From Aspidapion aeneum (lineage: Eukaryota > Arthropoda > Insecta > Coleoptera > Brentidae): a DNA stretch of 64,000 nucleotides. Positions 6,623-64,000 of the stretch are shown in pieces (the stretch's first letter is position 1; every line of letters begins with the position of its first letter). The stretch spans positions 8,030,931-8,094,930 of the forward strand of contig OY755047.1 in the NCBI GenBank assembly GCA_963576565.1. Direction: 5' to 3'. The translations under genes and the position numbers were made by a program. The notes below the pieces were generated by a model. The model ran no database searches and was not told the origin of the DNA. It saw only the letters and a program-made list of their open reading frames with translations.

Positions 6623-6799
6623 ATGTATTTAAAATAGTTGGAGAACGAAATTAACACGCCTTTTTCTCTTGGCGATTGACAATGATCTCCCCGGTTGTTG
6701 GTGCGCATGTCCAAATACGCTGAATGCGCTTTGCCTTTCATACAGTTGTGTGTTTTTAAAAATATATATAAACAACCGCGAAATTTAGCGGGAGCTAAC

Positions 6800-6930
6800 A
6801 GAGGGATTGTGAAGGATTGTGGTAAGATTGTGAAGGATTGTGAGAGATTGTGGGTGATTGGGAGGGATTGTGTAAAGATTGTGAAGGATTGTGAACAGAT
6901 TGTGAGAAATGTGTACACCGATTGTGAGAG
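6800..6930. repeat. GATTGTG-type minisatellite (right side of the element)
   Basis: Eight or more imperfect units ('gattgtgaaggattgtggta') leading straight into the right inverted end of the element at 6929-6944. It is the counterpart of the block at 5395-5790. Confidence 0.85.
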
Positions 6931-21838: not shown

Positions 21839-22449
21839 CAGTGCTATCAAAATGGACGGGCCACGATCCTCCACTTTGTTGACGTCACATCCGGGGCTGA
21901 TTTTTTTTTGATGGTCACGATACGACACAGCTGATTGTCTTTAAAATTTTGAAGTTGGAATGACGGTTCATGGATATTTGATTTTTTGTTACATAAAGCC
22001 GTTTTTGAGATTGTTTTTACTTTATTCTGGCAGAACAATTTTTTTTAAATGTATAGTAAGCCCCAATTTTTCATAGCCGCTTCATTAGCTCACACAAAAA
22101 TTAAGTTTAAAGCAGAAGCGAATGTGACAATCACATATGACAAAGTCAAATACATGTCAAATATAACAGTTGGCATGTGGTACATGGCGGGTAATTTGAA
22201 TTCAAGATAAGGAATGCTAAATCTTGAAGATTTTAACCTTTTAATCATGTTGCTTCCTTACAAAACTTTGGTGGAATATCGGGATGGTGTCTGAGAATAT
22301 TTCACTGAAATTTTGCGGAAATCTGTAATGCCATTTTGAAAATATCATAAAAAAACGTCTGACCTCCCATAAGACCCAATGTAAAATTCAGCCCCGGGAG
22401 AACAGCTGATTTTTTCAGGGTCGTGGCCTCTATTTTTGTGTTGGCCTTG
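21839..22449. mobile_element. hAT-type MITE, copy 1 (about 611 bp)
   Basis: Begins CAGTGCTATCAAAATGGACG and ends ACAAAAATAG-type complement 'tttgtgttggccttg', an imperfect inverted end of about 28 bp including the shared GGCCACGA. It interrupts a 344-bp repeat unit: CCCACAC occurs on both sides (21832-21838, 22450-22456), and the uninterrupted sequence exists at about 22740-22800, an empty-site control. The CAGGGCT-like end and 7-8-bp duplication fit a non-autonomous hAT element. Other copies: 31085-31649, 32018-32617 (minus), 33490-34096. Confidence 0.8.
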
Positions 22450-23075
22450 CCCACACATATAATTTACATGTTCAAGCAGATAATTTTTAAGATGCAACTT
22501 TCAGTGCAAATATCTTGACAACCAGAAGGGATAAAAACAAAATTTTTAAGATCTATGATGTATGGAATGTGTACTTTAAATGTAGGTAGTTGATATCTTC
22601 AGTTATTGTACTTAATCATTTCCACCTAGATTATTAAAACGTTCCACTGTGCAGCGTCATAAAAATTAGCATAATATGTTACCCTCCAAGAAATAGATAC
22701 CCTATCTTCAAAAAATCATATTTTGATAAAAATTCCCAGCACGTTTAATCCAGCGCCTACTATACGAGAAAAAACGATATTTTTAAACCATTGCCCACAC
22801 ATATAATTAACATGTTCAAGCAGATAATTTTTAAGATGCAACTTTCAGTGCAAATATCTTGACAACCAGAAGGGATAAAAACAAAATATTTAAGATCTAT
22901 GATGTATGGAATGTGTACTTTAAATGTAGGTAGTTGATATCTTCAGTTATTGTACTTAATCATTTCCACCTAGATTATCAAAACGTTCCACTGTGCAGCG
23001 TCATAAAAATTAGCATAATATGTTACCCTCCAAGAAATAGATGCCCTATCCTCAAATAATCATATTTTTTTGCGA
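22450..23075. repeat. 344-bp tandem duplication
   Basis: 'cccacacatataatt.acatg' through 'ctgtgcagcgtcataaaaat' and 'gttaccctccaagaaataga' occurs twice, 344 bp apart (22450 and 22794). A third partial unit precedes the hAT MITE at 21755-21838. The units differ by a few substitutions only. Confidence 0.9.
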
Positions 23076-23249: not shown

Positions 23250-23682
23250 GTTAAAAAACTTTGGGGTAGTGGGGGTAGATTTAAAAAATTAGAGTTTATG
23301 TGAAAATATGGCGTGTGTGATATCAAACGAAAGGTAATTGAGTCTGGAGTTAAACAAAATACATTTTGATTTATTTTAAAAAAAGGGTGGGGGTATATTT
23401 CAAAAATTAGAGTTTAAGTGAAAATATGACGTGTGTGATATCAAACGAAAGGTAATTGAGTCCGGAGTTAAACAAAATACATTTTAGTTTTTGTTTTTTT
23501 AAGGGTGGGGGTAGATTTCAAAAATTTGAGTTTAAGTCAAAACATGGCTTGTGTGGTATCAAACAAAAGGTAATTTAGTCTGGAGTTGAATAAAATATAT
23601 TTCAGTTATATTAGCTCACACGTACACTATAACTATAGTACCTAGTGTGAGCTTAGGGGCCCATATATTGGCAGAGTATTTT
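23250..23682 (-). mobile_element. HINE-like element, truncated copy (about 3 monomers)
   Basis: Minus-strand copy of the 18.0-kb element. Satellite monomers run from about 23265, followed by 'ttagctcacacgtacactat', 'cctagtgtgagctt' and 'tatattggcagagtatt', the inverted left end. The microsatellite end is missing. Confidence 0.7.
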
Positions 23683-25689: not shown

Positions 25690-27958
25690 ATGGTCAGCAA
25701 ATTCGGTAGCTCCTTCACTGAGGGTCAGCAAATTAAGTAGCTCTTTGACTAAGGGTCAGCAAATCAAGTAGCCCTTTCAAAATCAGCAATTTTTCGCGTG
25801 AAAATTAAGCCTTTTCTGTCACACAGCTAAACAGAACAATTTCAAACTTAATCCTTTTCTTCTTTTCAACAGTTGCATCACAAGTGACGACATTTTACCA
25901 CTATGCTTGTTTATAAGAGACCCTAGACTTTTTATTATTATATTGAAAAAAAACATGTAATTTTTTTCCAATATATAACCTTACAATGATCGAAAATGCT
26001 CTGGTTAGGCACTTTCTCACATTATATTGTTAAAAAATATAGAAAGTGCAAAATGGTCAAAAAATTAGGTAACACTTTCAGGGTCAGTAAAACCATCACT
26101 TTTAATAAATAGCAAATAAGGTGGCTCTTTCAACAAAGTCAGCAAATTAAGTAGCCCTTTTACTAAAGGTCAGCAAATCAAGTAGCTCTTTCAACATTTG
26201 CAATTTTTCGCGTAAAAATCAAGCTTTTTCTTTCAGACAGCTAAACAGAGCATCTTCAAACTTAATCCTTTTCTTCTTTAATCTTCTTTGCAACAGTTGC
26301 GTCGCAACTGACGACATTTTTACCACTCTGCTTCTCCATAAGATTCATAAGCCTAGAGTCTTTATTATATTGAAAAAAACTTTTTTTTCAATATCTAACC
26401 TTACAATGATCGAAAATGCTCTGGTTAGGCACTTTCCCACATTATATTGCTAAAAAATATAGAAAGTGTAAAATGGTCAGCAAATTAGGTAGCACTTTCA
26501 GGGTCAGTAAAACAAAACTTTTAATAAAGTCAGCAAATAAGGTGGCTCTTTCAACAGAGTCAGCAAATTAAGTAGCCCTTTCACTAAAGGTCAGCAAATC
26601 AAGTAGCTCTTTCAATATTTGCAATTTTTCGCGTAAAAATCAAGCTTTTTCTTTCAGACAGCTAAACAGAGCATCTTCAAACTTAATCCTTTTCTTTTTT
26701 AATCTTCTTTGCAACAGTTGCGTCGCAACTGACGACATTTTTACCACTCTGCTTCTTCATAAGATTCATAAGCCTAGTCTTTATTATTATATTGAAAAAA
26801 AAAACTTTTTTTTCAATATCTAACCTTACAATGATCGAAAATGCTCTGGTTAGGCACTTTCTCACATTATATTGTTAAAAAATATAGAAAGTGTAAAATG
26901 GTCAGCGAATTAGGTAACACTTTCAGGGTCAGTAAAACAATCACTTTTAATAAATAGCCAATAAGGTGGCTCTTTTAAGAAAGTCAGCAAATTAAGTAGC
27001 CCTTTCACTAAAGGTCAGCAAATCAAGTAGCTCTTTCAACATTTGCAATTTTTCGCGTAAAAATCAAGCTTTTTCTTTCAGACAGCTAAACAGAGCATCT
27101 TCAAACTTAATCCTTTTCTTCTTTAATCTTCTTTGCAACAGTTGCGTCGCAACTGACGACATTTTTACCACTCTGCTTCTCCATAAGATTCATAAGCCTA
27201 GAGTCTTTATTATTATATTGAAAAAAAAACTTTTTTTTCAATATCTAACCTTACAATGATCGAAAATGCTCTGGTTAGGCACTTTCCCACATTATATTGC
27301 TAAAAAATATAGAAAGTGTAAAATGGTCAGCAAATTAGGTAACACTTTCAGGGTCAGTAAAACCATCACTTTTAATAAATAGCCAATAAGGTGGCTCTTT
27401 CAAGAAAGTCAGCAAATTAAGTAGCCCTTTCACTAAAGGTCAGCAAATCAAGTAGCTCTTTCAACATTTGCCATTTTTCGCGTAAAAATCAAGCTTTTTC
27501 TTTCAGGCAGCTAAACAGAGCATCTTCAAACCTAATCCTTTTCTTCTTTAATCTTCTTTGCAACAGTTGCGTCGCAACTGACGACATTTTTACCACTCTG
27601 CTTCTTCATAAGATTCATAAGCCTAGAGTCTTTATTATTATATTGAAAAAAAAACTTTTTTTTCAATATCTAACCTTACAATGATCGAAAATGCTCTGGT
27701 TAGGCACTTTCCCACATTATATTGCTAAAAAATATAGAAAGTGTAAAATGGTCAGCAAATTAGGTAGCACTTTCAGGGTCAGTAAAACAAGAACTTTTAA
27801 TAAAGTCAGCAAATAAGGTGGCTCTTTCAACAAAGTCAGCAAATTAAGTAGCGCTTTCACTAATGGTCAGTAAATCAAGTAGCCCTTTCAAAATCAGTAA
27901 TTTTTCGCGTAAAAATCAAGCTTTTTCTTTCAGACAGCTAAACAGAGCATCTTCAAAC
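25690..27958 (-). repeat. ~424-bp tandem array duplicating the Kdm3 terminal coding segment
   Basis: The sequence complementary to the Kdm3 C-terminus and stop begins at 25848, 26262, 26683, 27107, 27532 and, in the real gene, 27959: periods 414, 421, 424, 425 and 427 bp. Each unit contains the last about 30 codons, a 'ttgaaaaaaaac..tttttttcaa' hairpin, 'aatgctctggttaggcactt', and several copies of the 27-bp minisatellite. The copies at 26683 and 27107 still read in frame (LMNLMKKQSGKNVVSCDATV and a near-twin) to the same TAA. The array lies directly 3' of the gene. Confidence 0.93.
27631..27636 (-). terminator. Candidate Kdm3 poly(A) signal
   Basis: AATAAA on the minus strand about 320 nt past the stop codon, inside the first downstream copy of the tandem array. 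The same hexamer recurs in further units, so several polyadenylation sites are possible. Confidence 0.35.
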
Positions 27959-30900
27959 TTAATCCTTTTCTTCCTTAATCTTCTTTTCAACAGTTGCATC
28001 GCAAGTGAAAACATTTTTACCACTCTGCTTGTTCATAAGAGAGCCCAGAGTAGATAAGGCATCTTTTACAGCATGATAGATGATATTCTTAATCTGTAAC
28101 TTGTCCTCGTGATTCGTATGAGTGTCACTCAGGTCCCTGAACTCCTGGGTCAGGTGAAAACAGTGGGAAACATTTTCGGGTGAGACAAAATCTTCGGCTA
28201 CTTTGATGCAGTTGTGGAGGTTGCGGACCTGGTGAGGGGCCCCTGCGGGGATGAAAACTGCATCTCCATAGCACTGAACGATTGCATAACCTTCGACACC
28301 ATATTCTTTGTACAGACGTTCCCTTAAGGGACCGTCCAGGTACCCAGATTGATCGTGGATAGGGTCGTGTTGAGGTTCTAGGCGGCCTCCTTTCTCCACA
28401 GTTACCTGAAAAGAATAAAACAATATTTTTAGGTATATATGGTATTTTGTAATATGCCTTGGTAGAAATAAAATTTCGGACTTCCATTGTCTTTATTTAT
28501 TTTAAAACACGACGTTTCGGTTAGTAAGTATCTCTAACCGTTATCAAGTGTAAACTAAGGGGTGATGGATCTTTTGGAGCTCTGTCTCTTGAAATGATGG
28601 ACTCCCAATGGGTTCATCTCTTTCGCCAGTGGTAGCAAACATCTACATGGAGTGGTTCGAGGACCATGCGATCAACACAGCAAAAGTCAAACCGAAACTA
28701 TGGCTACGATACATGGATGACACATTTATTATATAGCCGGAAAATGATGACGAACTACAGAATTTTCTACACCATTTAAACGGTATTCGACCAACAATCA
28801 AGTGCACCATGGAAATTGAAAAAGATTCGGCCTTACCTTTTTTGGATGTTCTTGTCAAACAATTAGACAGAAACATTCAAACCACTGTATATAGGAAACC
28901 TACACACACGGGACAGTACCTAAATTTTAAGTCTAATCATTCTGTTGTAACAAAACAAGGAGTTATAAGAGGTTTGTATTTAAGAGCCGTAAATATTTGT
29001 AGTAATAATGAAGAATTAACCACGGAGATTAACAACATTAAAAAGGACTTACAACAGAATGGTTATTCCGAGAAATTAATAAACTCAACGATATTTAAAA
29101 TTAAAAACAAACTAAATGTACCAAATTCTCAAAATAATAATCCGTTAGGTGTTATTAACATTCCATATGTTCAAGGGATTTTAGAAAACATAAGACGAAT
29201 AGCTAAACACTATAATATAAAAACAGTATTTTCTTCGGGAAATACTATAAGAAGTTTTGTAACTAAAACAAAACCAGACAATCCCTCAAATAATAAGGAA
29301 TGTATTTACCAAATCCCGTGTGAGTGTGGTAAATCATATGTAGGTGAAACGAAACGCCCTCTTCAGGTTAGAGTAAATGAACATCTAAAAAGTACCCAAT
29401 TAGGGGATATTAAAAAATCCGGTTTAGCAGATCATGCATGGTCAAATGATCACAGGATTCAGTGGTCAGAAGCTAAAGTTTTACATAAGGAGTCGCATTG
29501 GCGAAAACGAAAGTTTATTGAAGCTGCGTTTATAATGCAGAATAAAGAAGTTTTCAGTCAACCAAGCACGGAAACCACTCCTTAAGGAAAACAGGCGTCT
29601 TAGGATTAAAAAAGGGGGCGGGCCGTCACACCTAACTGCACATTAAGTAGTATATGTAGTAGCTTAGAGACTAGATTGTTTAGTTTACACTTGATAACGG
29701 TTAGAGATACTTACTAACCGAAACGTCGTGTTTTAAAATAAATAAAGACAATGGAAGTCCGAAATTTTATTTCTACACAATCATTGTCTACGAGTTTCAA
29801 ACAAAGATGCCTTGGTATGATTTGGAATGATTTGCCTGTTGAAATGTCATATATGGATGATTCTACAAAAATGGTGCTGTGGAGTGGGAATGCATATTTT
29901 TCAAACACAGACTGCAAATGAAGCATAGTTTTAGTTATAAGATTTAAAACGAAATGTTTTCTTTATGGAGCATTTGAGTTTAATGTATAAAAAAAATTGC
30001 AAGTTTATAATTTTTTTTATTACAAAGCAAATACCTCATTCCTCTGGTGTAGTCCCAAACCAAATATTAAAAACTCAAGGTGAAAAAATATCCTAATAAA
30101 TAATATTTTTTATCAAAAAATTGATAAAACTTAAGTTTGCAGTCATATTTTTGAAAATCCGAATTTACATCTGCCCGGAAAATTTTACAATTTTAAACGT
30201 GCTCCATTTTTAATAACACAATATTTGTGAATACCACCGGTTAATTTCTAGAGAAAGAGACGGCCCTGGATATCTAATTTACTTGTGAGGGTGACAAGTT
30301 GTGACAGATAATGTCAACTTTAGTTTGGTTTAAGTTATAGATCTTTTTATTTTCGGCAGAAAATTAGTTTTTTTCGGAGAAATCAAAAAGGAACGCTTCA
30401 ATTATCATTCCTCTGGTAAGTGAATATTCGACTGATATCAATAGTATAATTTTTTTGTTGATTGTTTTAAAATTCTAAGTATAGGAACTTTGTTTATATA
30501 AAACTTAAGTTAAGTAGTCTAAATAGATTTTGATTTAAATTGGAAAACCCTTAAAAAACTCATTCCTCTGGTCCTCATTCCTCTGGCATTTTTATGCAAT
30601 AATTCCTAAAATTTGGGAAAATAAATGTTTCTTAGCTTACACCTAATTAGTTACATAAATTTAAAAAATCAAAATTATTTACTGTGCTGTACTGTTATTT
30701 AAAGGCAATGACCAAAAATGATATCCATATAGCTTTTTGTAGAATCATCCATATCAAAGATTATCACTCAAACTTACCTTATTCAACAAATCCCTAATCT
30801 TGTCCGCATCCCTTGCGTTGTATATGTGCCACAAGGCACCAGGTAACTCTCCTTTGTCCCTTACTCGTCTACGCGTCAAAATATCACACCCAGCCTCGTC

Positions 30901-33900
30901 GATTGCCTTGAACGCCTCGCGTATATGCTCGTCGTTGTCGCCATCTTTCGGAATACCAACGTACACCATGACGTTGACTGCGTCTGAGATGTCTAAGTGA
31001 AGATTTGTGGTTCCTGAAGAAAAAATTAAAAATAGTTAAAATTCGGTCAGCAAATTGAGTGGCAAGAAGTCAGCAAATTTAATGGCACATTTGTTGACGT
31101 CACATCGGGGGCTGATTTTTTTTTGATGGTCACGTCACGACACAGCTGATTGTCTTTAAAATATTGAAGTTGGAATGACGGTTCATGTTTTTTTTTTAAA
31201 TAAAGCCGGTTTTGAGATTGTTTTTACTATATTCTTGCTGAACAATATTTTTTAAATGTATAGTAATCATTAATTTTTCAGAGTCGCTTCATTAGCTCAC
31301 ACAAAAATTAAATTTAAAGCAGAAGCGAATGTGACAAACACAGATGACAAAGTCAAATACATGTCAAATATAACAGTTGGCATGGCGGGTAATTTGAATT
31401 CAAAATAAGGAATACTAAATCTTGAAGATTTTAACCTATTAATAATTTTGCATCCTTACAAAAGTTTGGTAGAATATCGGGATGGTATCTGAGAATATTT
31501 CATTGAAATTTCGAAGAAATTTGTAGTGCCATTTTGAAAATATCATAAAAAAACATCTGACGTCCCATAAGATCCAATGTAGAACTCAGCCCCCTGATAA
31601 CAGCTGATTTTTTCAGAGTCGTGGCCTGTAATTTTTTGTTGGCCTTGGGTCAGCAAATTGGGTGGCACGAGGTGAGCAAATTTCGTGGCGTGAGGTCAGC
31701 AAATTGAATGACACAAGGTCAGCAAATTGAATGACATAAGGTCAGCAAATTGAGTGGCACAAGGTTAGAAAAATTAGTGACACGGTGTCAGCAAATTAAG
31801 TGCTACGAGGTCAGCAAATTAAGTGGCACGAGGTCAGCAAATTGAGTGAAACAAGGTCAGTCAGTTAAGTAGCACAAGGTCGGCCCATTGTGTAGTACAA
31901 GATGTCTTCAATTCGATGATTTTGAGAGGTTTTAAGTATTTCTACACCCATTTGCGAGGTTAACTACGCAAAACTCCTCAAAAACATCGAGTTTGGGACA
32001 CCCTGTACAAGGTCAGCCAAGGCCAACACAAAAATAGAGGCCACGACCCTGAAAAAATCAGCTGTTCTCCCGGGGCTGAATTTTACATTGGGTCTTATGG
32101 GAGGTCAGACGTTTTTTTATGATATTTTCAAAATGGCGCTACAGATTTCCGCAAAATTTCAGTGAAATATTCTCAGACACATCCCGATATTCCACCAAAG
32201 GTTTGTAAGGAAGCAACATGATTAAAAGGTTAAAATCTTCAAGATTTAGCATTCCTTATTTTGAATTCAAATTACCCGCCATATACCACATGCCAACTGT
32301 TATATTTGACATGTATTTGATGTACGCTGATCATATGTGATTGTCACATTCGCTTCTGCTTTAAACTTAATTTTTGTGTGAGCTAATGAAGCGGCTATGA
32401 AAAATTAAGGATTACTATACATTTAAAAAATATTGTTCTGCCAGATTAAAGTAAAAACAATCTTAAAAACGGCTTTATTTAAGAATAATTCCAATTTTTT
32501 CAATATTTTAAAGACAATCAGCTGTGTTGTAACGTAATGACCATCAAAAAAAATCAGCCCCGGATGTGACGTCAACAAAGTGGAGGATCGTGGCCCGTCC
32601 GTTTTGATAGCCCTGGCTAAATCTTGAAGATTTTAACCTTTTAATCATTTTGCATCCTTTCAAAAGTTTGGTAGAATATCGGGATGGTATCTGAGAATAT
32701 TTCATTGAAATTTCGAAGAAATTTGTAGTGCCATTTTGAAAATATCATAAAAAAAGTCTGACAAGCAAGAACAGCAGATTTTTTCGTCGTGGCCTGTAAT
32801 TTTTTGTTGGCCTTGGGTCAGCAAATGGGGTGGCACGAGGTGAGCAAATTTCGTGGCGTGAGGTCAGCAAATTGAATGACACAAGGTCACCAAATTGAGT
32901 CGCACAAGGTCAGCAAATTGAGTCGCACAAGGTCAGAAAATTGAGTGACACGAGGTCAGCAAATTGAATGACACGAGATCATTAAATCAGTAAATTGAGT
33001 AAAACAAGGTTAAGTAGCACAAGGTCCGCTCATTGAGTAGTACAAGATGTCATTTCGATGTCAATTCGATGATTTTGAGAGGTTTTAAGTATTTCTACAC
33101 CCACTTGCGAGGTTAACTACGCAAAACCCCTCAAAAACATCGAGTTTGGGACACCCTGTACAAGGTCAGCCAATTGAGTAGTACAGGGTCAGCAAATTGA
33201 GTCGCACAAGGTCAGAAAATTGAGTGACACGAGGACAGCAAATTGAATGACACGAGATCATTAAATCAGTAAATTGAGTAAGACAAGGTTAAGTAGCACA
33301 AGGTCCGCTCATTGAGTAGTACAAGATGTCATTTCGATGTCAATTCGATGATTTTGAGAGGTTTTAAGTATTTCTACACCCACTTGCGAGGTTAACTACG
33401 CAAAACTCCTCAAAAACATCGAGTTTGGGACACCCTGTACAAGGTCAGCCAATTGAGTAGTACATGGTCAGTAAATTGAGTAACACAAGGTCAGCCAGGG
33501 CTGTCAAAATGGACGGGCCACGATCCTCCACTTTGTTGACGTCACATCCGGGGCTGGTTTTTTTTATGGTCACGTTACGACACAGCTGATTGTCTTTAAA
33601 ATATTGACGTTGGAATGACGGTTCATGAATATTTGATTTTTGTTAAAATAAAGCCGTTTTTGAGATTGTTTTTACTTTATTCTGGCAGAACAATTTTTTT
33701 TAAATGTATAGTAATCCTTAATTTTTCATAGCCGCTTCATAAGCTCACACAAAAATTAAGTTTAAAGCAGAAGCGAATGTGACAAACACAAATGACAAAG
33801 TCAAATACATGTCAAATATAACAGTTGGCATGGCGGGTAATTTGAATTCAAAATAAGGAATACTAACTCTTGAAGATTTTAACCTATTAATAATTTTGCA

Positions 33901-36900
33901 TCCTTACAAAAGTTTGGTAGAATATCGGGATGGTATCTGAGAATATTTCATTGAAATTTCGAAGAAATTTGTAGTGCCATTTTGAAAATATCATAAAAAA
34001 ACATCTGACGTCCCATAAGATCCAATGTAGAACTCAGCCCCCTGATAACAGCTGATTTTTTCAGAGTCGTGGCCTGTAATTTTTTGTTGGCCTTGGGTCA
34101 GCAAATTGGGTGGCACGAGGTCAGAAAATTGAGTGACACGAGGTCAGCAAATTGAATGACACGAGATCATTAAATCAGTAAATTGAGTAAGACAAGGTTA
34201 AGTAGCACAAGGTCCACTCATTGAGTAGTACAAGATGTCATTTCGATGTCAATTCGATGATTTTGAGAGGTTTTAAGTATTTCTACACCCACTTGCGAGG
34301 TTAACTACGCAAAACTCCTCAAAAACATCGAGTTTGGGACAACCTGTACAAGGTCAGCCAATTGAGTAGTACAGAGTCAGCAAATTGAGTCGCACAGGTC
34401 AGAAAATTGAGTGACACGAGGTCAGCAAATTGAATGACACGAGATCATTAAATCAGTAAATTGAGTAAGACAAGGTTAAGTAGCACAAGGTCCGCTCATT
34501 GAGTAGTACAATATGTCATTTCGATGATTTTGAGAGGTTTTAAGTATTTCTACACCCACTTGCGAGGTTAACTACGCAAAACTCCTCAAAAACATCGAGT
34601 TTGGGACACCCTGTACAAGGTCAGCCAATTGAGTAGTACAGAGTCAGCAAATTGAGTCGCACAAGGTCAGAAAATTAAGTGACACGAGGTCAGCAAATTG
34701 AATGACACGAGATCATTAAATCAGTAAATTGAGTAAGACAAGGTTAAGTAGCACAAGGTCCGCTCATTGAGTAGTACAAGATGTCATTTCGATGTCAATT
34801 CGATGATTTTGAGAGGTTTTAAGTATTTCTACACCCACTTGCGAGGTTAACTACGCAAAACCCCTCAAAAACATCGAGTTTGGGACACCCTGTACAAGGT
34901 CAGCCAATTGAGTAGTATAGGGTCAGTAAATTGAGTTACACAAGGTCAGCCTGTATCTGCTGTTCTTGCTTGTCAGACGTTTTTTTATAATATTTTCAAA
35001 ATGGCACTACAAATTGAATGGCACTAGGTCACCAAATTGAATGACACAAGGTCAGCAAATTGAGTGGCACAAGGTCAGAAAATTGAGTGACACGAGGTCG
35101 GCAAATTGAATGACACGAGATCATTAAATCAGTAAATTGAGTGAAACAAGGTTGGGTAGCACAAGGTCCGCCCATTGAGTAGTACAAGATGTCATTTCGA
35201 TGTCAATTCGATGATTTTGAGAGGTTTTAAGTATTTCTACACCCATTTGCGAGGTTAACTACGCAAAACTCCTCAAAAACATCGAGTTTGGGACACCCTG
35301 TACAAGGTCAGCCAATTGAGTAGTACAAGGTCAGTAAATTGAGTTACACAAGGTCAGCCTGTATCACTTTCAAGGTCAGCCAACTGAAATAATTTTTAAT
35401 GAAAGTCTAAACAATTAGCTACCACAAAATTAGTAATTTAAGTAGCAAAAGGTCAGCAATTTAACTAGCACTTTTACTGACGGTCAGCAAATCAAGTAAC
35501 ACTTTCAGGGACAGCAAAATGTAAGGTAAATGACACAGAGGAAAAAGTAAATCATACCTTTGTTGGGATGCAGTGCCGAGCCATAAGCGTTGTACATTTT
35601 GGGTCCCAAATCGGGTCGTACGAAACATTCTGGGAGCCGGGACGCCAAATTCAATCGTCCAGATCGGTGCGTGTATTCTTCCAAAGGTAGCACTTTCATG
35701 AGGTCAGCAAATCGAGAAGGTAGCATTTCCGCAAAGTCTTCGCCTGGCGGCCAGTCTTTCAGTTTCAGGAGCATCGGTTGCCCTTTGTCATCTCTTAATC
35801 TGTAAAAAAAACAATAAAAATATTTGTTGTAGTTTGATGCATTTATACTTATTTTTATCAAAATTATCTGCTTTGGTTTAGTTAGCAAAAATTGATCTAC
35901 TAGATCATATTTGTTTACCTCTTGGAAAAGTGGTCAAAGCCTTCCCAAAACTTCCTCATAGGCTGATTGGGTACAAGGTTGCCAGTCATGCAGTTGATTA
36001 AATCGTTTTTTTCGTCTCCAAAGTCCCTAGCAAAGGCGTCAGGGTTCCACAGGTCTTTGTTGATGTTCTTGGTGACGTCAGATACAATTACTGGTTGACC
36101 TCGTTTCCATTGGTCCTGAAAACAAAACAAAAATATTTAAGGTATGTAGATTTAGGTAGCACTTTCATGGTCAGCAAATTAGGTAGCACTTTCAAGGTCA
36201 GCAACTTTGGTAGCTCTTTCAAAGTTAATAAAAAATATTGGGGTATGTAAATTTGGTAGCACTTTCATAGTCAGCATATTATGTAACCCTTTCATGGGCG
36301 GCGAATTTGGTAGCTCTCCTTATTAGTAAAAAGATTGAGGGTTAGTAAATTTGGTAGCACATTCATGGTCAGCAAATTAGGTAGCACTTTTACGGTCAGC
36401 AAATTTGGTAGCTCTTTCAAAGTTAATAAAAAATATTGAGTAGTAAATGTAAAGTATGTAAATTAGGTAGCACTTTCATGGTCAGAAAATTATGTAACGC
36501 TTTCATGGGCGGCGAATTTGGTAGCTCTCATTATTAGTAAAAAGATATTGAGGGTTAGTAATTTTGGTAGCACATTCATGGTCAGCAAATTAAGTAGCAC
36601 TTTCATTATCAGCAGATTTGGTAACTCTTTCATGGTTAGAAAAAAAAATTAAGGGCAAGTCGAGGGGGATTTCACTGACCATTTTTTTGTACATATGTTC
36701 GCATTGTTTGACAAAATGCGAAAAAATGCGAAATAGTGCGGAAAAATGCTAAATAATAAAATTAAGAATTGTTGAGTTCATTGAATTCGGGCAGTGTTGT
36801 AAAAAGGGTAAAAAGAAAAGGGTAATTTTTCGGTAGGTTAATTTTTAAAAAGGTATTTTATTAATCATGTTTATAAAACTTTTTAAGAGTAGACATGCTT

Positions 36901-39900
36901 TTTTTCCAGTCTGTCACCTTAGCTCCGAAATGTAGAAGCGACGTTGCAAAATGCGGCAAAACGACTCACGTGATATACATACCTTTTTGAGTGGAAAAAA
37001 CATCAGAATTGGCTGAAATTTCAGTGGAAGGCACATTTTGTAAAAACTAAGACAAGGCTCGGAGCAATTTTTTGGTTTTTTTTGCCGAATAAGTAAAAAC
37101 TTCTTTCTAAGGACACCGATTCGAAATATTCATGACATACATATTTCGAATCGGTGGCCTAGAAAGAATTTTTGACAAAAAAATCAAAAAAGTGCTCCGA
37201 GCCGTGGCTTAGTTTATACAAAATGCGCCCTCCACTCAAATTTCAGCCAATTCTGATGTTTTTTTCACTAAAAAAGGTATGTATATCACGTGAGTCGTTT
37301 TGCCGCATTTTGCAACGTCGCTTCTACGTTTCGGAGCTAAGGTGACTGACTGGAAAAAAAGCATGTCTACTCTTAAGTGAAAATATACATTTATACTCAT
37401 TACTCCTAATCGTCTGATATATCAATGTCCTCAAAATATTCTGCTTCTATCTCACTTTCACTTATGTAATCTGTTTCACTTTCAGTTTCTGTTTCAGTCT
37501 CACTTTTTTGGTACATTTTTTTTGTACGTCTTTGTTTTGTAAGCGTTTTTTCTGAAGGTTGTTTTGATTTTAGTATTTGGCTGGTCAGTCTGTTCTTTGT
37601 TTTTCCCTGTCCTGTTTGTTTTGTTCGAGGTTGGTCTGTCATTGGTCCTTGAAATCTTAAAAGTCTGTCAGTCGAGAGTCGTCCCACATTATTGGAGTAA
37701 AACCAGCATAATGTGGATTTGCGTACAGCGCCAACTCTTTCTATTGCCTTAAAAATATCACTTCTTAGCTGACGCGGACTTTAGTTTGGCAGTTTTAAAA
37801 ACGAATTTAACACGTCCTTATTTTTTGCATTTAGAAAAATATAACTTGAAGACCTCGTTGAAGACTCAGCAGTTATCAGGGCTAATTTAATTTTCATTTA
37901 AATGGGCAAAAAAAAATGCGTAATTACTAAAATATTTACCGAACACTAATTCCGTTTGTTTGTTTGAACTCGGGGAGAGCAATCATACGATTTTTGATTT
38001 ATAAGAAAAAAAAAATTATAACAAATAAGAAACAATGCAGAAAAATGTGAAAAAATGCAGAAAAATGTGAAAAAATGCAGAAAAATGTGAAAAAATGCAG
38101 AAAAAATGCGAAAAAATGTGAAAAAATTCGAAAAAATGTGAAAAAATGCGAAATAATGCCGCATTATTTCATCAAAATTTGTACATATATTGCGGCTAGT
38201 GAAATCCCCCTCGGGGCAAGTAAATTTGATAGCACTTTCATGGTCAGCAAATTAGGTAGCTCTTTCATGGTCAATAGAATCAATTAAGTCAGCAAGTTAG
38301 CCTTTTTTTTTCTTACCTGGAAGATTTTGTAGTTTTCCTTGGACAAAGCATCACTCAGCCTCAAAAGTTTGCCATCACATAGCCAAGAGTGCGGTGTTTT
38401 GGGGTACAGAATTTTGCTTTCTGTCAAGGTCATTATTCTAATCGGAAGTTGTTGTCTACCTTTATTTTGCCAGTTGTATCTGAAAGAGATGGAGAATTAA
38501 AAGTTAAATGAGAATTACAGGGCTCTCAGCACCTTCATATTTTATGAAAATGTTCATATTTTTTTTCAGACTTCATAAGACTTCATATTTTTAGAAAAAC
38601 CTTCATATTTTCTCCAATGAAGAAACTTCAGTCATAAAATAAGTGTGGAAATTTTCAATATTTTTCCTAGTCTTGAATTTTGAGTTCCTTTTAGTTTATT
38701 ATTAGTTTGTTGCCTCTGAGAAAGTCTGAATAAAGTAAGGCTTTTTTGCCTTTTGTTTTATTATTCTTATGTTTGTTGCATTTCTTATGTTAATTAGTTG
38801 TTTTGGTCATCCGTGGTTAGTTCGGAAAAAGTCTAATTGAGCAGGGCTTTTTCAGGAATTTTATTCTTTTACTCTGTAATGTTGACTTTTTTTAAATGTT
38901 TGAGCTCGGAATATGTATTTAAAGTATACCAATTATATCATCGAGTATATTTAAGTTTTCTGTGTTACTAGATGTACAGAGTGTTTTGGTATATTTCCAC
39001 AAAGGTCTACTGCACTTATTTCAAGATATAGAAAATAGGGTACCTATTTTTAAGAAATGTAGAGTAGGTCCCAAACCGCTAGAAATTATTGATACTAATA
39101 TTTTAACAGTGGCTTTATCAAATGGCAGTTTATCATATATTTTTGAGTTTAGAAAGAAAATATATTTTTTTTTAAGTTAAATCATTAACATATTAATTTG
39201 TAGGATGTTCCCTAAGAGATTTACAATGTTTGTGTTTTTTTATAACTCTTTTTGATGATATAATAAAGCCTACAACTTTTGCATTTATAATTTTTTTTCT
39301 ATTTCTTTGAATAATTGCAGTAGACCTTGGTTTAAAAATACGAAAAAAACCCTTATACCTTGTTGTAAAATATGCTTTAAAAAATGTGCCTTGTTTTTGT
39401 TAGGCCATAGTTGTTTGGATGGGGATCCAAGGCTAATTCAACTTCAAAATGTTTGCTAATACTTTTCTTAATAAATAAAATCAAGAAATATACAGGGTGT
39501 TATTAAAAGTTTGTAACAAACTTTGACAGGTGATAGTACACATAAAAATAAGAAAAAAAGTTCATATGAACATAGGTCCTAAAATGCATAGTAGGGGAGC
39601 TACGGGCACCAAAAGGGTTAATATCGAAAATGGTTTTTTTATACAGCAACTTTAAAAAGCTATGGAATTTTACAAAAAATTGCAAATGTTAATTCATTTT
39701 GATCCTTCACATTGTGGTAAGGTAAAAAAATAATTACTTAACTCAAAAGGGTACTTTTGGTAGGGGTGGGGGGTTGTTTTAACACGATTTTTTTTTGTAT
39801 TGCATTTTTTTGCATTTTTAGTCCATTTTTGAAAACTACTCCCCTTTTAAAGTAAAAAAGGTACTCTTGTCTAAAGTAGCCCAGAGCAACGATTTACGAG

Positions 39901-42900
39901 ATAATTAAGCGTAAAGATTTTTAGTACCTTAGAATTTTTTTTTGTATTGCATTATTTTACATTTTGAGTCCATTTTGAAAAACTACTCCCTTTTTTAGGT
40001 AAAAAAGGTACTCTTGTCTAAAGTCGCCCAGAGCAACGGTTTACGAGATAATTGAGCGTAAATTTTTTTAGTACCTCCCATAAGCAGAATAACTTTTACG
40101 TTCAATTATCTCGTAAACCGTTGCTCTGGGCGACTTTAGACAAGAGTACCTTTTTTACTTAAAAAAGGGAGTAGTTTTTAAAAATGGACTCAAAATGTAA
40201 AAAAATGCAATACAAAAAAAAAATCTTGTTAAAACCCCACCCCTACCAAAAGTACCCTTTTGAGATAAGTAATAATTTTTTTACCGTACCACAATGTGAA
40301 GGGTCAAAATTAATTAACATTTGCAAGTTTTTGTAAAATTCCATAGCTTTTTAAAGTTGCTGTATAAAAAAAACCATTTTCGATATTAACCCTTTTGGTG
40401 CCTGTAGCTCCCCTACTATGCATTTTAGGACCTATGTTCATTTGAACTTTTTTTCTTATTTTTATGTGTACTATCACCTGTCAAAGTTTGTTACAAACTT
40501 TTAATGACACCCTGTATATTTTCGCTGAGTAAATGAGTTTTCCTAAAAAACAGTTGGGTTGGACATAACAAGCCATTTGCTAGAGGACCCAAAAAAAAAG
40601 TTTTTATTCATATTTCCTTGATATTTTGTTTTCTGAATTTCATATTTTTCATAATTTTATTTAAAAAAGTTCATATTTTTCATATTATTTTGCTGTCTAT
40701 CTGTTGAGATAAAATAAGTGATTCATAACAGAGTGCACAGGCATATACATCTTTAGAGAGTCGTACTGAGTTAGAGAGAGACAGCTGCTGTGTGGGTGGA
40801 CGCCATATTTGTTGTTCATTTACATTTTGCGGTGTTTTGCGTTTGTCATGTAAAATTTTATCTTTTTCTGTGAAAAATGGGAAATAGTTCACATAAATAT
40901 GTGCGGTATGTGGAAAAATGTCCGGGAAAAGTAAGGGAGTGACATTCCATAGATAAGTACTTGTATTTTTCTTTATAATTTGTTCATAAAGTTAAGAGTG
41001 GTTTACTTCATGGTGTCCACAATAAACCTGCAGAATTAATTTTAAAAAACTAAAATTTCAGCCAACAGGGCCCAAGTGACACCTCAGTGCTATAATTAAA
41101 TCTGCTTACCTTCTGACGAAATGCTTCAACTCCATTTTCTCCTCCTCAGTGTCATCTTTTTCCACTTTTAGTGGAGAATCCATGGCGAACGCAAGGGGAT
41201 CTTGTTCGGAATTGGGTGTTTTTTTCTTGTTGTTCTCCTTGTCTTTGCTGACTGGCGAGGCTGCTCTCGAGGAACCGTTGGCTTTATGCGAGGGTCTGAT
41301 CAAGAGCTCTCTGAGAGTGGAAAAGTTGCCTTCATCTTCGCTCGAAGAGTTCTCGTGTGATCCTTGTTTTGACTTGTTGTCTTTGTTGTTTGACGCTTCC
41401 GAGTCTGGTTTTTCTTCGTTTTTTATCGCTACATCTGCCAACCAATTCAGAGGGGAGTTTTTCTCGTCTTTCACTGCCCCGTTTGCTAGTTTTGGTTTTT
41501 CGTCTTTTTCTTCCTTGATGCCTAAGAAAAAATAAAAGTTAAAAATATGGGAAGCAGTTTTTTGCAGTCAGCAAATTATGGGTAGCACTTTCATGGTAAG
41601 CAAATTATTATGGGTAGCACTTCTATGGTCAGCTAATTAGCGGTAATGCTTTCATGGGTCAGGAAATTATGGGTAGCACTTTCATGGTAAGCAAATTATT
41701 ATGGGTAGCACTTCTATCGTCAGCTAATTAGCGGTAACGCTTTCATGGGTCAGCAAATTATGGGTAGCACTTTCATGGTAAGCAAATTAGTATGGGTAGC
41801 ACTTCTATGGTCAGCTAATTAGCGGTAACGCTTTCATGGGTCAGCAAATTATGGGTAGCACTTTCATGGTAAGCAAATTAGTATGGGTAGCACTTCTATG
41901 GTCAGCTAATTAGCGGTAACGCTTTCATGGGTCAGCAAATTATGGGTAGCACTTTCATGGTAAGCAAATTAGTATGGGTAGCACTTCTATGGTCAGCTAA
42001 TTAGCGGTAACGCTTTCATGGGTCAGCAAATTATGGGTAGCACTTTCATGGTAAGCAAATTAGTATGGGTAGCACTTCTATGGTCAGCTAATTAGCGGTA
42101 ACGCTTTCATGGGTCAGGAAATTATGGGTAGCACTTTCATGGTAAGCAAATTATTATGGGTAGCACTTCTATGGTCAGCTAATTAGCGGTAACGCTTTCA
42201 TGGGTCAGGAAATTATGGGTAGCACTTTCATGGTAAGCAAATTATTATGGGTAGCACTTCTATGGTCAGCTAATTAGCGGTAACGCTTTCATGGGTCAGC
42301 AAATTATGGGTAGCACTTTCATGGTAAGCAAATTAGTATGGGTAGCACTTCTATGGTCAGCAAATTAGTGGTAACGCTTTCATAGTCAGCAAATTATGGG
42401 TATCACTTTCAGTAACAGCAAATTGGGGGTAGCACTTTAAGGCTCAGGGATATTCTATAAAAATGCGGACATGAATAGAAAAAAAAACAAGCCGTGTAAG
42501 TTTTTAATTAAAAACATTGGTTAATATGAAACTATCAAAATTATGTATTGTCGTTTTATTGTTAAATAATGTATTCGATCGTAACACGAAATTCTCGTCA
42601 GCAAATTATGGGCAGTACTTTCATGGTCAGCAAACTATTGTTAGCACATTCAGGTCGCAAATTATAGAAGCACTTTCATGGTTAGCTAATTTAGTACCAC
42701 TTTCATGGTCAGCAAATTGAGTAGCACTTTCATGGTCAGCAAATTATTATGGGTAGCACTTCTATGGTCAGCTAATTAGCGGTAACGCTTTCATGGGTCA
42801 GCAAATTATGGGTAGCACTTTCATGGTAAGCAAATTAGTATGGGTAGCACTTCTATGGTCAGCAAATTAGTGGTAACGCTTTCATAGTCAGCAAATTATG

Positions 42901-45900
42901 GGTATCACTTTCAGTGTCAGCAAATTGGAGGTAGCACTTTAAGGCTCAGGGATATTCTATAAAAATGCGGACATGAATAGAAAAAAAAACAAGCTGTGAA
43001 TTTTTTTAATTAAAAACATTGGTTAATATGAAACTATCAAAATTATGTATTGTCGTTTTATTGTTAAATAATGTATTCGATCGTAACACGAAATTCTCGT
43101 CAGCAAATTATGGGCAGTACTTTCATGGTCAGCAAACTATCGTTAGCACATTCAGGTCGCAAATTATAGAAACACTTTCATGGTTAGCTAGTTTAGTACC
43201 ACTTTCATGGTCAGCAAATTGAGTAGCACTTTCATGGTCAGCAAATTATTATGGGTAGCACTTCTATGGTCAGCTAATTAGCGGTAACGCTTTCATGGGT
43301 CAGCAAATTATGGGTAGCACTTTCATGGTAAGTAAATTAGTATGGGTAGCACTTCTATGGTCAGCAAATTAGTGGTAACGCTTTCATAGTCAGCAAATTA
43401 TGGGTATCACTTTCAGTGTCAGCAAATTGGGGGTAGCACTTTAAGGCTCAGGGATATTCTATAAAAATGCGGACATGAATAGAAAAAAAAAACAAGCTGT
43501 GTAAGTTTTTAATTAAAAACATTGGTTAATCTGAAACTATCAAAATTATGTATTGTCGTTTTATTGTTAAATAATGTATTCGATCGTAACACGAAATTCT
43601 CGTCAGCAAATTATGGGCAGTACTTTCATGGTCAGCAAACAATTGTTAGCACATTCAGGTCGCAAATTATAGAAGCACTTTCATGGTTAGCTAATTTAGT
43701 ACCACTTTCATGGTCAGCAAATTGAGTAGCACTTTTATGGTCAGCAAATTTAGTGACACTTTTATGGTCAGTGTTCTATTTTAAAATGAATATAGCACTT
43801 ACCATTCATTTTCTCAGCGAGAATCATTTTGACCACTTCTTTGCACTCTGTATGGTTCAGTTTGGTGTCTTTTTGAGTTGGGCATCCGCAGTATTGTTCG
43901 ATGCCCCAAATGTCCCTCATTTCGTGCACCATTCTGCCCAGTTTCAAAAGGCAGTCGTCAGCAATTATTTGGGTAAGCATTAGTTTTTCTTGTTCGTGCG
44001 ATCCTCGGTTCGTACATAACAGCCAGTTGAATTCGTCTCTGTCTTTTTGCTCGCTTTGGGACTTTGAGTTGTTTTTTCGGCTCTGAAAGCAAAATGATAT
44101 GTTAAACTTTTATAGAAGAATTTTTAAGAAATTAAAATTAAAAAAAAAATTAGGGTCAGTAAATTATGGGTAGCACTTTGATGATCAGAAAATTATTGGT
44201 AGCACTTTAATGGTCAGCAAATTTGGTAGCATTTTTATGGTCAGCAAATTATTAGTAGCACTTTAATGGTCAGCAAATTCGGTAGCACTTTCATGGTCAG
44301 CAAATTCGATGGCACTTTCACGGTCAGTAAAAACAAAAAACTTTCAACTAGGTCAGCAAATCGAGTAGCATTATAACTAGTTTGTTTTTTTTAAATTGTA
44401 AAACAGTTTTTATTCTTACCTTATAACAGTCTAAACAGACGACAAACCCGCACTTTCCGCACGCCCAGTGGTAGTTGAAAAGCGTTGTTTCGCACACGTC
44501 ACACATTTCTCTCACGCCTTGGACAACTCGTTTCCAGGCAACAGTCTTATCTAGAAAAAATATATAAAAAATAGTCATTAGTACTTAATTCGAAATACGG
44601 TAGCACTTTCGTGGTCAGCAAATTGGGTAGCACTTTCATGGTCAGCAAAAAATATTGAAGTAAAGTGTGTAGCATATTCTTAGTTAACAAATTAGTTAGC
44701 ACTTTGGTCAGCAAATTTGGTAGGTCTTTTATGGTCAGTAAATGCATTAAAGTATATTAGGCAGCACTTTGGTCAGCAAATTTGGTAGGTCTTTTATGGT
44801 CAGTAAATGCATTAAAGTATCCTTTGTGTTTTTTTGATGGGTGGGAAGCATGACTTCTGAAGATGGGCTTACCTTCGGACATATGTTCATTGTGGGCTTC
44901 TTTTTCTTGTAAGAGCAAGTCACAAAAATGGTCTCCCACTTGTTTGAGCAAAAATCGGGATGTTTCCAGGTCGAGATCGTTTGGAGGGTCTTCTGTATTT
45001 GGTAACCTTTAATAAAATAAAAAATATATCAAACAAGTTTCATGGCTAATCGGGCAAAAAGGAGTTTTTTGGTTCCCTTATATTTTTCCGTGGGTAGCTT
45101 GAAAGCTTAACCTCACGGGGGTCCAAGATCTAATGGACACCTAATAAGTGTTGACAGTTAACCGTTTCGTTCTTATGGGACTCCTCAGAACACTGCTGGT
45201 CAAGTGACAAATCTTGCGAAGTTAATCAGACGGTTTTGTCTCTAATTAAATGTAATTAGTGAGCGAACTATAGCATACGAGAGAAACAAAAAACCAAAAG
45301 CAGGGAAAAACACAGCTATACAATATCGATCAATGAAAAGATCGAATGCAAATAAAAGAAAACAACTATAGTCCGTGACCTACGACAGCTCTTTGTCTTT
45401 TCAGGCCGGATCAACGCATTTTGCATTTTTACCCGTCATCAAGACAGTGAGCGTCAATCAACGGAATTTTTGAGCCAAATAATACTAACAAACGTGAAAT
45501 TTCGTACCCGTGAATTTAAAAATCAAACAAGTTTCATGGCTAATCGGGCAAAAAGGAGTTTTTTGTTTCCCTTATATTTTTCCGTGGGTAGCTTGAAAGT
45601 TTAACCTCACGGGGGTCCAAGATCTAATGGACACCTAATAAGTGTTGACAGTTAACCGTTTCGTCCTTATGGGACTCCTCAGAACACTGCTGGTCAAGTG
45701 ACAAATCTTGCGAAGTTAATCAGACGGTTTTGTCTCTAATTAAATGTAATTAGTGAGCGAACTATAGCAAGAGGCGCCATCTACCGAGATACGAGAGAAA
45801 CAAAAAACCAAAAGCAGGGAAAAACACTGCTATACAATATCGATCAATGAAAAGATCGAATGCAAATAAAAGAAAACAACTATAGTCCGTGACCTACGAC

Positions 45901-48900
45901 AGCTCTTTGTCTTTTCAGGCCGGATCAACGCATTTTGCATTTTTACCCGTCATCAAGACAGTGAGCGTCAATCAACGGAATTTTTGAGCCAAATAATACT
46001 AACAAACGTGAAATTTCGTACCCGTGAATTTAAAAATCAAACAAGTTTCATGGCTAATCGGGCAAAAAGGAGTTTTTTGTTTCCCTTATATTTTTCCGTG
46101 GGTAGCTTGAAAGTTTAACCTCACGGGGGTCCAAGATCTAATGGACACCTAATAAGTGTTGACAGTTAACCGTTTCGTCCTTATGGGACTCCTCAGAACA
46201 CTGCTGGTCAAGTGACAAATCTTGCGAAGTTAATCAGACGGTTTTGTCTCTAATTAAATGTAATTAGTGAGCGAACTATAGCAAGAGGCGCCATCTACCG
46301 AGATACGAGAGAAACAAAAAACCAAAAGCAGGGAAAAACACTGCTATACAATATCGATCAATGAAAAAATCGAATGCAAATAAAAGAAAACAACTATAGT
46401 CCGTGACCTACGACAGCTCTTTGTCTTTTCAGGCCGGATTAACGCATTTTGCATTTTTACCCGTCATCAAGGCAGTGAGCGTCAATCAACGGAATTTTTG
46501 AGCCAAATAATACTAAAAAACGTGAAATTTCGTACCCGTGAATTTAAAAATCAAACAAGTTTCATGGCTAATCAGGCAAAAAGGAGTTTTTTGTTTCCCT
46601 TATATTAAAAATATATATTAAACAAACTGAAAAAAATCTCTATATTAATCATTTTAATGGTCAGCAAATTATAAGTAGCACTTTCATGGTCAGCAAATTC
46701 GGTAGCACTTTCACGGTCAGTAAAATAAAGTTACTAACGATAGGATCAGTAGAACAGGCGGGTTAAAACTCACCATAGTTTGATGTCCTCCTCCAAGGCG
46801 TCTTTATGGGGATCCGAGAATCCCGCGATGGCCAATTGGCCATTCTTGGTGTACCTCAGTCTTCTAAATGCGTAGAACCGGCAAAAGATGTTCGGCATGT
46901 TTCGAGAACGCTGATTCGGTGTCCATCGGCATTCTCGGCACTTTTGCAGCTTGGGAGCTACCTGAAAAGACAAGAGAAATTTTGCTATAACTCTAACGAT
47001 ATTTAACGAAATCTTATAAAACATGTTTTATTTGAATCTTTGCAACTTGAATATTAGTCAGCAAATTGGGTAGCACTTTCACCAAAAGTCAGCAAAACTT
47101 AAGGGTCAGTAAAATTAAGGAGTTTTCAATGAGTTCAGAAAAAATACGATAGTTTCTAAACTAATGGCCCGATTTGGATGATTCTTTTTTTGTTTTGTTG
47201 CAAATTGATGTGTTTATCTTACCTCAAAACAGGGTCCGTCTTGAAGGAAGCTCTCGCCGGTTTTTTTGAGTTGGCCCACGGGGGGTTTGCGAAAGGGGTC
47301 GCGCTGGGGCTCGTTATCTTCGTTGTCTTTGGATTTCTTGGCGCGCGGCTCCTCGCCCTTGTCGTTTTTTGACCTGGCAATGTCAAAAAAACAACCTGTC
47401 AGTTTTTTATGAAAAAAAAATGTTATATAAATCATCGCAACTGGTTTAAAAAATAACGAAATACTGGCAAATGCTTGGATAGTCTGGCTAGAATAAAATG
47501 AGGCACAAAAGAGATGGCTTTAATTAGTGCTATCTTTCTCTTTCCAGTGACGTGCTATAATTTTTTAATTCATTATTATTAGGTATTAATTTTATATTTT
47601 ACTCCTCCTAAGCCTTTTTGTGCTGGAAAACTCCATATCTTATTTTTCTTAAAAAGAAATATAATTAAAAACTTTTATACTTATTATATTATATAGGTAC
47701 CTACTTATTTCATTAGGTAGGTGCGGACGAATCTAGAAACCTACAAAAATACCAGTTAACTTTCTAAAAATTGCAAAAATCCAAAACCATTCGTTATATG
47801 GATGATTCTACAAAAATGGTGCGGGAGTGGAGTGTGAATGCATATTTTTCAAACACAGATTGCAAATGAAGCATAGTTTTAGTTATAAGATTTAAAACAA
47901 AATGTTTTCTTTATGGAGCATTTGAGTTTAATGTATAAAAAAAAATTATAATTTTTTTTATTACAAAGCAAATACCTCATTCCTCTGGTGTAGTCCCAAA
48001 CCAAATATTAAAAACTCAAATTGAAAAAAATATCCTAATAAATAATATTTAACCAAGTCCTAACTATTTATCAAAAAATTGATAAAACTTAAGTTTGCAG
48101 TCATATTTTTGAAAATCCGAATTTACATCTTCTCCAGAAAATTTTACAATTTTAAACGTGTTCCATTTTTAATAACACACTATTTGTGAATACCACCAGT
48201 TAATTTCTAGAGAAAGAGACGGCCCTGGATATCTAATTTACTTGTGAGGGTGACAAGTTGTGAAAGATAATGTCAACTTTAGTTTGGTTTAAGTTATAGA
48301 TCTTTTTATTTTCAGCAGAAAATTAGTTTTTTTCAGAGAAATCAAAAAGGAACGCTTCAATTATCATTCCTCTGGTAAGCAAATATTCGACTGATATCAA
48401 CAGTATAATAAAGAATATAAGTATAGAAACTTTGTTTATATAAAACTTAAGTTAAGTTAAACTTTTCTATATACGCCACTGAGTGGGAGCATTCGAATGT
48501 GAATCATCATGTATTGTCCGGCCAGAATAAAATGAGGCGCAAAAGAGATGGCTTCAATTAGCGCTATCTTTATCTGTCCAGTGGCGTGCTATAATTTTTT
48601 AATTCATCATTATTAGGTATTAATTTTATATTTTACTCCTCCTAAGTCTTTTTTTGCTAAAAAACTCCATACCTTATTTTTCTTAAAAATAAATATATTT
48701 TCAAAAGTTTTATACTTATTATATTATATAGGTACAGTCGGAGACTTTTTAAATTGCCTCTGTATTTTTTTTCGATCAAAATTATTCATTTAAAGAAATC
48801 AAAAAACTAGTAAATATTCGACTGATATCAATAGTATAATTTTTTTGTTGATTGTTTTAAAATTATAAGTAAAGGAACTTTGTTTATATAAAACTTAAGT

Positions 48901-63450: not shown

Positions 63451-64000
63451 TAGCTCACACATATACTATACTATAGTAGTGTGAGCTATGGTGATCCTAA
63501 TTTTTTCGAGAAAAAAAAAGTTGCTCCGATTTCAAAATTTTTTATATATCTTTGCGTTTCAGATGATTTTGAAACTTTTTTGTTGCGCCGTCTGTCTGTC
63601 TGTCTGTATGTCTGTCTGTCTGTCTGTCTGTCTGTATGTCTGTCTGTAACGACCAATGCGCATAACTCAAAAACCGCTTGGCCGATTTTAATGAAATTTG
63701 GTACCTAGGCTGGGTCTTGGGTCGAGATGGTCCCATTTAAAAATGAACAAAATTCACCGAACACAAACCGAATAAAAGGGTGGGGGTAGATTTCAAAAAT
63801 TAGAGTTTATGTGAAAATATGGCGTGTGTGATATCAAACGAAAGGTAATTGAGTCTGCAGTTAAACAAAATACATTTTAATTTATTTTAAAAAAAGGGTG
63901 GGGGTATATTTTAAAAATTAGAGTTAAAGTGAAAATATGGTGTGTGTGATATCAAACGAAAGGTAATTGAGTCCGGAGTTTAACAAAATACATTTTAGTT
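63451..64000 (-). mobile_element. HINE-like element, continues beyond the window
   Basis: Reverse-oriented: stem AGCTCACACATATACTATACT/AGTAGTGTGAGCTA-type end at 63451-63487, (CTGT)n tract at 63588-63650, the 'ggtacctaggctgggtctt' block, then at least two satellite monomers ('gggtgggggtagatttcaaa', 'aacgaaaggtaattgagtct'). Confidence 0.75.

Follow-up and report, generated by a model that had tools for sequence, protein, structure and literature searches.

A minisatellite private to the Kdm3 locus of Aspidapion aeneum, probably seeded by one of the gene's own coding exons

The window analysed here, a stretch of 64,000 nucleotides from the beetle Aspidapion aeneum (assembly GCA_963576565.1, contig OY755047.1, positions 8,030,931 to 8,094,930), carries the histone demethylase gene Kdm3 on its minus strand, together with a minisatellite that occupies introns and the 3' flank of this gene and that probably arose from a piece of one of its coding exons. 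The gene was modelled as 11 exons within 27,959-47,373 (window positions, as are those below), bounded by AG and GT and joined in a spliced frame that stays open over 859 amino acids. The model is partial: it starts at exon e10, the 5' part of the gene lies outside it, and it contains ten introns. The peptide of the three exons of the JmjC region matched human KDM3B with an E value of 5e-116, and the named top homologues were insect KDM3 proteins, including those of Dendroctonus, Cryptolaemus and Callosobruchus, those of Clastoptera, Fopius and Ladona also being close. A second Kdm3 was not found in a protein search of the beetle's own genome with these three exons, which returned 3 matches, one per exon and all in this gene. 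By the same search, the exon proposed as the source of the repeat (jmjC1, 35558-35799) is present as a single copy, and its frame is open.

The unit of the minisatellite has two halves, one with GTCAGCAAATT and the other with GTAGCAC. Within 25.69-47.12 kb, 178 units were counted, with 151 in seven of the ten modelled introns, 26 in the 3' flank and one in coding exon 35558-35799. This catalogue covers the + strand, allows insertions and deletions, and was obtained from 240 candidates in 25.5-47.3 kb by removing first 25 that were weak or isolated and then 37 that matched half a unit. Introns e6-e5 and jmjC1-jmjC2 hold 59 and 55 units, respectively, followed by e4-e3 (16), e7-e6 (8), e8-e7 (7), e9-e8 (3) and e10-e9 (3); the catalogue has none in introns e5-e4, e3-jmjC1 (119 bp) and jmjC2-last. 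An earlier examination of the bare DNA letters (the sequence-only reading) had claimed more than 100 recurrences in the 3' flank and at least seven introns of Kdm3, a number and a distribution that the catalogue bears out. It had also described a single unit of 27 bp; this form does exist, as one among several, the lengths observed being 23 bp and 27-32 bp. The idea that the repeats, 27 being a multiple of three, remain open in one frame was dropped, for the reading frame is not kept among the units and 49 of 143 spacings are divisible by three. Tandem Repeats Finder (TRF) reported arrays of 23, 27, 29, 31 and 91 bp in the locus, arranged head-to-tail and with units of the size (~10-100 bp) that defines a minisatellite. 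The distance from the 3' splice site to the units is 31-71 nt in five of the seven unit-bearing introns, and that from the units to the donor is 18-63 nt in six of the seven. The exceptions are intron e10-e9 (94 and 107 nt) and the 3' side of intron e9-e8 (1,652 nt), where about three inserted direct copies of a 0.5-kb sequence (45030-46600; marker string at 45030, 45524, 46038 and 46552) stand between the units and the 3' splice site. This placement near both splice sites looks like that of short introns which have grown from within.

Confinement of the units to this locus was established independently of the catalogue by counting the core GGTCAGCAAATT on both strands of the window. With at most one mismatch, 129 occurrences were found on the + strand and 0 on the - strand, none of them outside 25,690-47,120; with at most two mismatches, there were 151 on the + strand (those outside being at 5303 and 48374) and 4 on the - strand (12688, 13503, 24761 and 41099, the last within the span). 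In the beetle's own assembly of 1.286 Gb, all 53 reported matches to a 26-bp unit at no more than three mismatches fell in the locus on one strand, a number equal to the window count, and all 7 reported for a dimer of the 23-bp type fell there as well. A relaxed search with a 21-mer placed 70 of 74 reported matches in the locus and the other four at isolated single places, where a rough hand estimate assuming equal base use gives ~11 expected by chance and a reversed control gave 0. These genome-wide counts of a repeat may be lower bounds. The check on dispersal through the genome left the claim of a repeat peculiar to Kdm3 standing. Matches between different introns, or between introns and the 3' flank, were direct in 510 cases and inverted in 0, the eight clusters sharing a single orientation, which argues against transposition. 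Confinement of the copies to one locus in one orientation separates them from transposable elements, and their restriction to one region of ~21 kb separates them from satellite DNA, with its large arrays at several loci. It is hardly credible that the units come from the interior of a transposable element or of a foldback element. The 23-bp type does sit between foldback-like sequences at 31.6-35.4 kb, but a sequence at ~22.0-22.5 kb, related to these as judged by eye, lacks the unit, none of the unit patterns searched for was dispersed in the genome, and the matches between clusters are never inverted.

The string of the repeat was also reported by the sequence-only reading to lie inside exon 35558-35799, and it was indeed found there: positions 35686-35730 carry GGTAGCACTTTCATG-AG-GTCAGCAAAT-CGAGAA-GGTAGCATTTCC, which in terms of the unit amounts to ~1.3 units (AAGGTAGCACTTTCATG-AG-GTCAGCAAAT-CGAG-AAGGTAGCATTTCC). 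In a comparison with two joined 27-bp units (a dimer) this exon scored 48, the other 21 exon-strand comparisons giving 18 or less. The chance level of the match was then checked, and 48 lay above all shuffles, recodings and genomic controls. None of 20,000 base shuffles of the exon reached it (maximum 28), nor did any of 20,000 synonymous recodings (maximum 45) or any of 3,000 shuffled units compared with all 11 modelled exons (maximum 33; fitted Gumbel tail 5e-8). As genomic controls, 421 242-mers from 29 kinase loci gave a best score of 29, and in 24 kinase loci the 27 rows of tandem repeats, compared with the exon of their own locus, gave a maximum of 21 (of 30 loci, 29 supplied the 242-mers; for the tandem-repeat rows 24 were used, six overlapping ones of a C7 tandem cluster being omitted). 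Arrays of the window outside the locus score up to 23 with the Kdm3 exons; those of the locus reach 50, and do so to exon 35558-35799. The best intronic copy of the exon stretch, at 36154-36193 in intron e4-e3, attains this score of 50 at a distance of 0.4 kb from the exon. Similarity between exon and arrays is limited to ~45 bp, and the exon bases that have been kept differ by unit family, being TTTCATG in the 27-bp, GAGGTCAGCAAATTGAG in the 23-bp and AAATC.AG in the 31-bp type.

A chance resemblance of exon and minisatellite is highly improbable. Weaker resemblances do occur, such as that of exon e6 to the arrays, which was rejected as chance when its score of 29 was equalled by 52 of 400 shuffles; scores of 48-50, however, were reached by no shuffle or control, one synonymous recoding coming to 48 against the whole region. 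Moreover, the split string, GGTAGCACTTTCATG followed after 0-4 nt by GTCAGCAAAT, has three occurrences genome-wide, all in Kdm3, namely the exon and two introns. Two further exon scores were set aside on other grounds: the 36 of exon e8 comes from an AT-rich stretch that it matches at 40.4 kb, inside an inverted-repeat element, and the 127 of the last exon is due to the copies of that exon's tail in the 3' flank.

With regard to direction, the ten-residue peptide encoded at this place is an ordinary one for KDM3. Among the best 120 of 2,823 homologues, which served as the set for all comparisons of the peptide, it aligned without a gap in 120 of 120, indicating that no unit was inserted into the exon, and the alignment with human KDM3B is likewise gap-free. 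Its R, D, L, M, L and P were found in 119, 117, 119, 117, 119 and 120 of these homologues, respectively, its F site holds F in 99 and Y in 21, and the residues at its A, K and V sites are among those usually seen there (25, 54 and 23). All ten residues are identical in the protein of Fopius arisanus. Because the peptide is conserved and gap-free across homologues, exon to repeat is the likelier direction; conservation had already been the argument of the sequence-only reading, and the protein comparison supports it without proving the direction. On this comparison the stretch is likelier to have been protein first, with the unit reading as a degraded piece of exon. Overall, with a probability of roughly 0.75, the locus contains a private minisatellite whose seed was a segment of a coding exon of Kdm3 itself.

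How the first unit may have formed is suggested by a 33-bp stretch of the exon that is bounded by two copies of the direct repeat AAGGTAGCA (Table 1). Slippage or unequal copying at this pair would have generated the first tandem unit, as in a model, outlined in passages of PMC3389668, in which direct repeats of 5-10 bp start a minisatellite. A copy of this unit would then have settled in a nearby Kdm3 intron, and such an early intronic copy may have served as the direct founder. Loss or change of linker bases would have given rise to the 27-32-, 31- and 23-bp forms, followed by expansion in place, and the unit would have been copied between introns of the gene in constant orientation, the likeliest means being gene conversion together with template switching over short distances on the same strand; selection on the protein would have kept the exons clean. 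Template switching on the same strand with gene conversion is the simplest copying route; a transcript-templated route would leave an identical pattern. One such route, in which a reverse transcript of Kdm3 pre-mRNA served to patch DNA under repair, giving one orientation relative to transcription, appears unlikely. The single orientation of the eight clusters and the failure to find any unit outside the Kdm3 region speak for it, but the same orientation is expected from same-strand DNA template switching, and the tail array of the 3' flank is consistent with simple tandem duplication. The broader proposition that the gene both seeds its repeat and spreads it from intron to intron, in one orientation relative to transcription and without leaving the gene and its 3' flank, by transcript-linked copying is doubtful; if true, such seeding and spread would constitute a gene-private route of intron growth.

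A number of observations weigh against an origin in the exon. When compared with the whole masked region, the real exon scored 50 and the best of 1,500 synonymous recodings 48, from which it follows that the peptide carries most of the exon match, and the background controls are few (24 loci). There is no clean gradient with distance: the intron adjoining the exon scores 38, less than the 42-44 of introns that lie 6-11 kb off, and across the exon the 119-bp intron is without units. The 9-bp direct repeat is not rare, since 141 of 2,000 shuffles contain one as long and 4 of the 11 exons, the seed exon included, have a repeat of at least 9 bp; the AAGGTAGCA pair thus supports a start by slippage but is no proof of it, and its right copy also contributes to the match score between exon and unit. 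In centrality among the 178 units, judged by cross-group similarity, the exon ranks 32 when the mean is taken and 36 when the best value is taken, and the most central unit by mean is intronic (36169); this test does not favour the exon. A tree of the units was set aside, units of ~40 bases being too weak for rooting, although with midpoint rooting the root-to-tip path of the exon is the third-shortest of 178. The intronic centre speaks for the reversed order, in which an older and unrelated minisatellite private to the locus would have overwritten silent or tolerated positions of the exon by gene conversion. This is distinctly unlikely. The arrays do surround the exon, and the A, K and V of the peptide are variable, but the near-fixed R, D, L, M, L and P already agree with the coding of the unit, a pre-existing minisatellite would need to have encoded MKVLP in advance, and Fopius arisanus has all ten residues unchanged.

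Table 1. Features of the Kdm3 locus and its minisatellite, in window coordinates.
Feature	Position	Strand	Basis or remark
Putative seed segment in exon, ~1.3 repeat units; encodes 14 residues on the minus strand	35684..35730	+	Score 48 to 27-bp dimer
Direct repeat AAGGTAGCA, left copy	35684..35692	+	Longest direct repeat in exon, 9 bp
Direct repeat AAGGTAGCA, right copy	35717..35725	+	33 bp from left copy
3' flank, 31-bp type units inside 425-bp tandem array, also with last-exon tail copies	25692..28040	+	TRF, unit catalogue
23-bp type units (GGTCAGCAAATTGAGTGRCACRA), intron jmjC1-jmjC2, interleaved with foldback-like elements	31045..35360	+	TRF, unit catalogue
27/31-bp type units adjoining seed exon, with exon-like ..GACGGTCAGCAAATCAAG	35374..35520	+	Unit catalogue, exon comparison
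27-bp type units, intron e4-e3; best intronic match to exon inside	36142..36645	+	TRF, unit catalogue, exon comparison
Remainder of e4-e3 cluster, past inserted element	38214..38300	+	Unit catalogue
Units of intron e6-e5 (59), 27-32 bp, in higher-order repeats of 91 bp and ~500 bp	41566..43771	+	TRF, unit catalogue
Units of intron e7-e6 (8); exact split-string copy starts at 44281	44154..44370	+	Unit catalogue, string search
Units of intron e8-e7 (7)	44599..44810	+	Unit catalogue
Units of intron e9-e8 (3)	46659..46731	+	Unit catalogue
Units of intron e10-e9 (3), 5'-most found in gene	47056..47120	+	Unit catalogue
Kdm3 last coding exon	27959..28405	-	Spliced model; tail recopied downstream at least 4 times
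Kdm3 exon jmjC2	30778..31013	-	Spliced model
Kdm3 exon jmjC1, holds putative seed	35558..35799	-	AG/GT bounded, within 859-aa spliced frame
Kdm3 exon e3	35919..36115	-	Spliced model
Kdm3 exon e4	38317..38479	-	Spliced model
Kdm3 exon e5	41110..41521	-	Spliced model
Kdm3 exon e6	43803..44082	-	Spliced model
Kdm3 exon e7	44420..44550	-	Spliced model
Kdm3 exon e8	44873..45006	-	Spliced model
Kdm3 exon e9	46774..46961	-	Spliced model
Kdm3 exon e10, first exon of partial model	47223..47373	-	Spliced model

The array needs no function and is most likely neutral. A regulatory role could be imagined from the core GTCAGCA of the unit, which is the complement of TGCTGAC, a motif reported in the relevant passage of PMC7618790 for the Drosophila large Maf protein Traffic jam. 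Exact copies of GTCAGCA number 91 on the window's + strand, all between 25,600 and 47,200, but no unit was found in the gene 5' of 47,120 at up to one mismatch, and the abundance of the motif is explained by its presence already in the exon seed (AGGTCAGCA). Such a role is considered very unlikely.

As a minisatellite the Kdm3 array is of a known kind; what is new is its proposed seeding by the host gene's own conserved exon and its spread over seven introns. Minisatellites born at short direct repeats have been reported (Haber and Louis, 1998; Taylor and Breden, 2000), as described in part of PMC3389668. Like those treated there, the Kdm3 units lie head-to-tail and are tens of bases long, and their seed is flanked by a 9-bp direct repeat; unlike them, the putative seed is coding sequence from a conserved exon of the gene that hosts the repeat, and seven separate introns as well as the 3' flank contain arrays. 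With the tandem repeats derived from transposable elements, of which passages of PMC3389668 and PMC6947457 give account, the Kdm3 arrays share the conversion of a non-repeat sequence into a tandem array, and they differ in that their source would be coding DNA. The legend of Figure 6 in PMC6947457 depicts a satellite that becomes coding sequence and states that the opposite change, of coding sequence into satellite, had yet to be proved. An exon-seeded, gene-wide intronic minisatellite was not found among the titles and abstract openings listed by searches of open-licence papers, which is weak evidence of absence. Exon duplication, by which mutually exclusive exons arise, also copies exon sequence within one gene, as is proposed for Kdm3; the Kdm3 copies, however, share ~45 bp with the exon and have lost its frame, and thus do not qualify as duplicated alternative exons. 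Introner elements similarly place one family in many introns, but they occur across many genes and give rise to new introns, whereas a single gene was found to carry the Kdm3 family, which is situated within existing introns.

Births of minisatellites are hard to study as their source is usually unrecognisable. Here the likely source persists in a demethylase exon, because protein conservation holds this stretch in place, and the birth, divergence and spread of the units could be dated against the exon in related species. The locus also suggests a route by which the introns of one gene may grow together, and it provides a concrete candidate for the conversion of coding DNA into tandem repeats.

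Other repeats were observed at and beyond the locus. The 3' flank of Kdm3 contains a 425-bp tandem array of 5.5 copies (25724-28040), which holds at least four extra copies of the last-exon tail with its stop codon in addition to the 31-bp units. These tail copies differ from the parent exon by 4-5 synonymous and 17-19 non-synonymous changes; the possibility that they serve as selected alternative ends was dropped, the differences being mostly non-synonymous and the copies looking unconstrained. Elsewhere in the beetle's own genome, at C7:3556994-3562457, a kinase-domain exon is followed by partial copies with stops at a spacing of 940 bp (TRF matches 95-97%), and conversion of coding DNA to arrays may happen often in the beetle's genome. 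Within the e4-e3 cluster, an element armed with inverted repeats (36661-38213) is flanked by GGGCAAGT at 36653 and 38214. Foldback-like sequences at 31640-35000, in a Kdm3 intron, enclose 23-bp units, and one at 22044-22500, whose relation to them was judged by eye, contains none. A tandem repeat of 114-119 bp occurs at 18109-20706, 23269-23602, 56922-57266 and 63774-63997, by eye in both orientations, and near the 5' end of the window (5423-6905) lie several arrays of a 10-11-bp unit resembling GGATTGTGAA.

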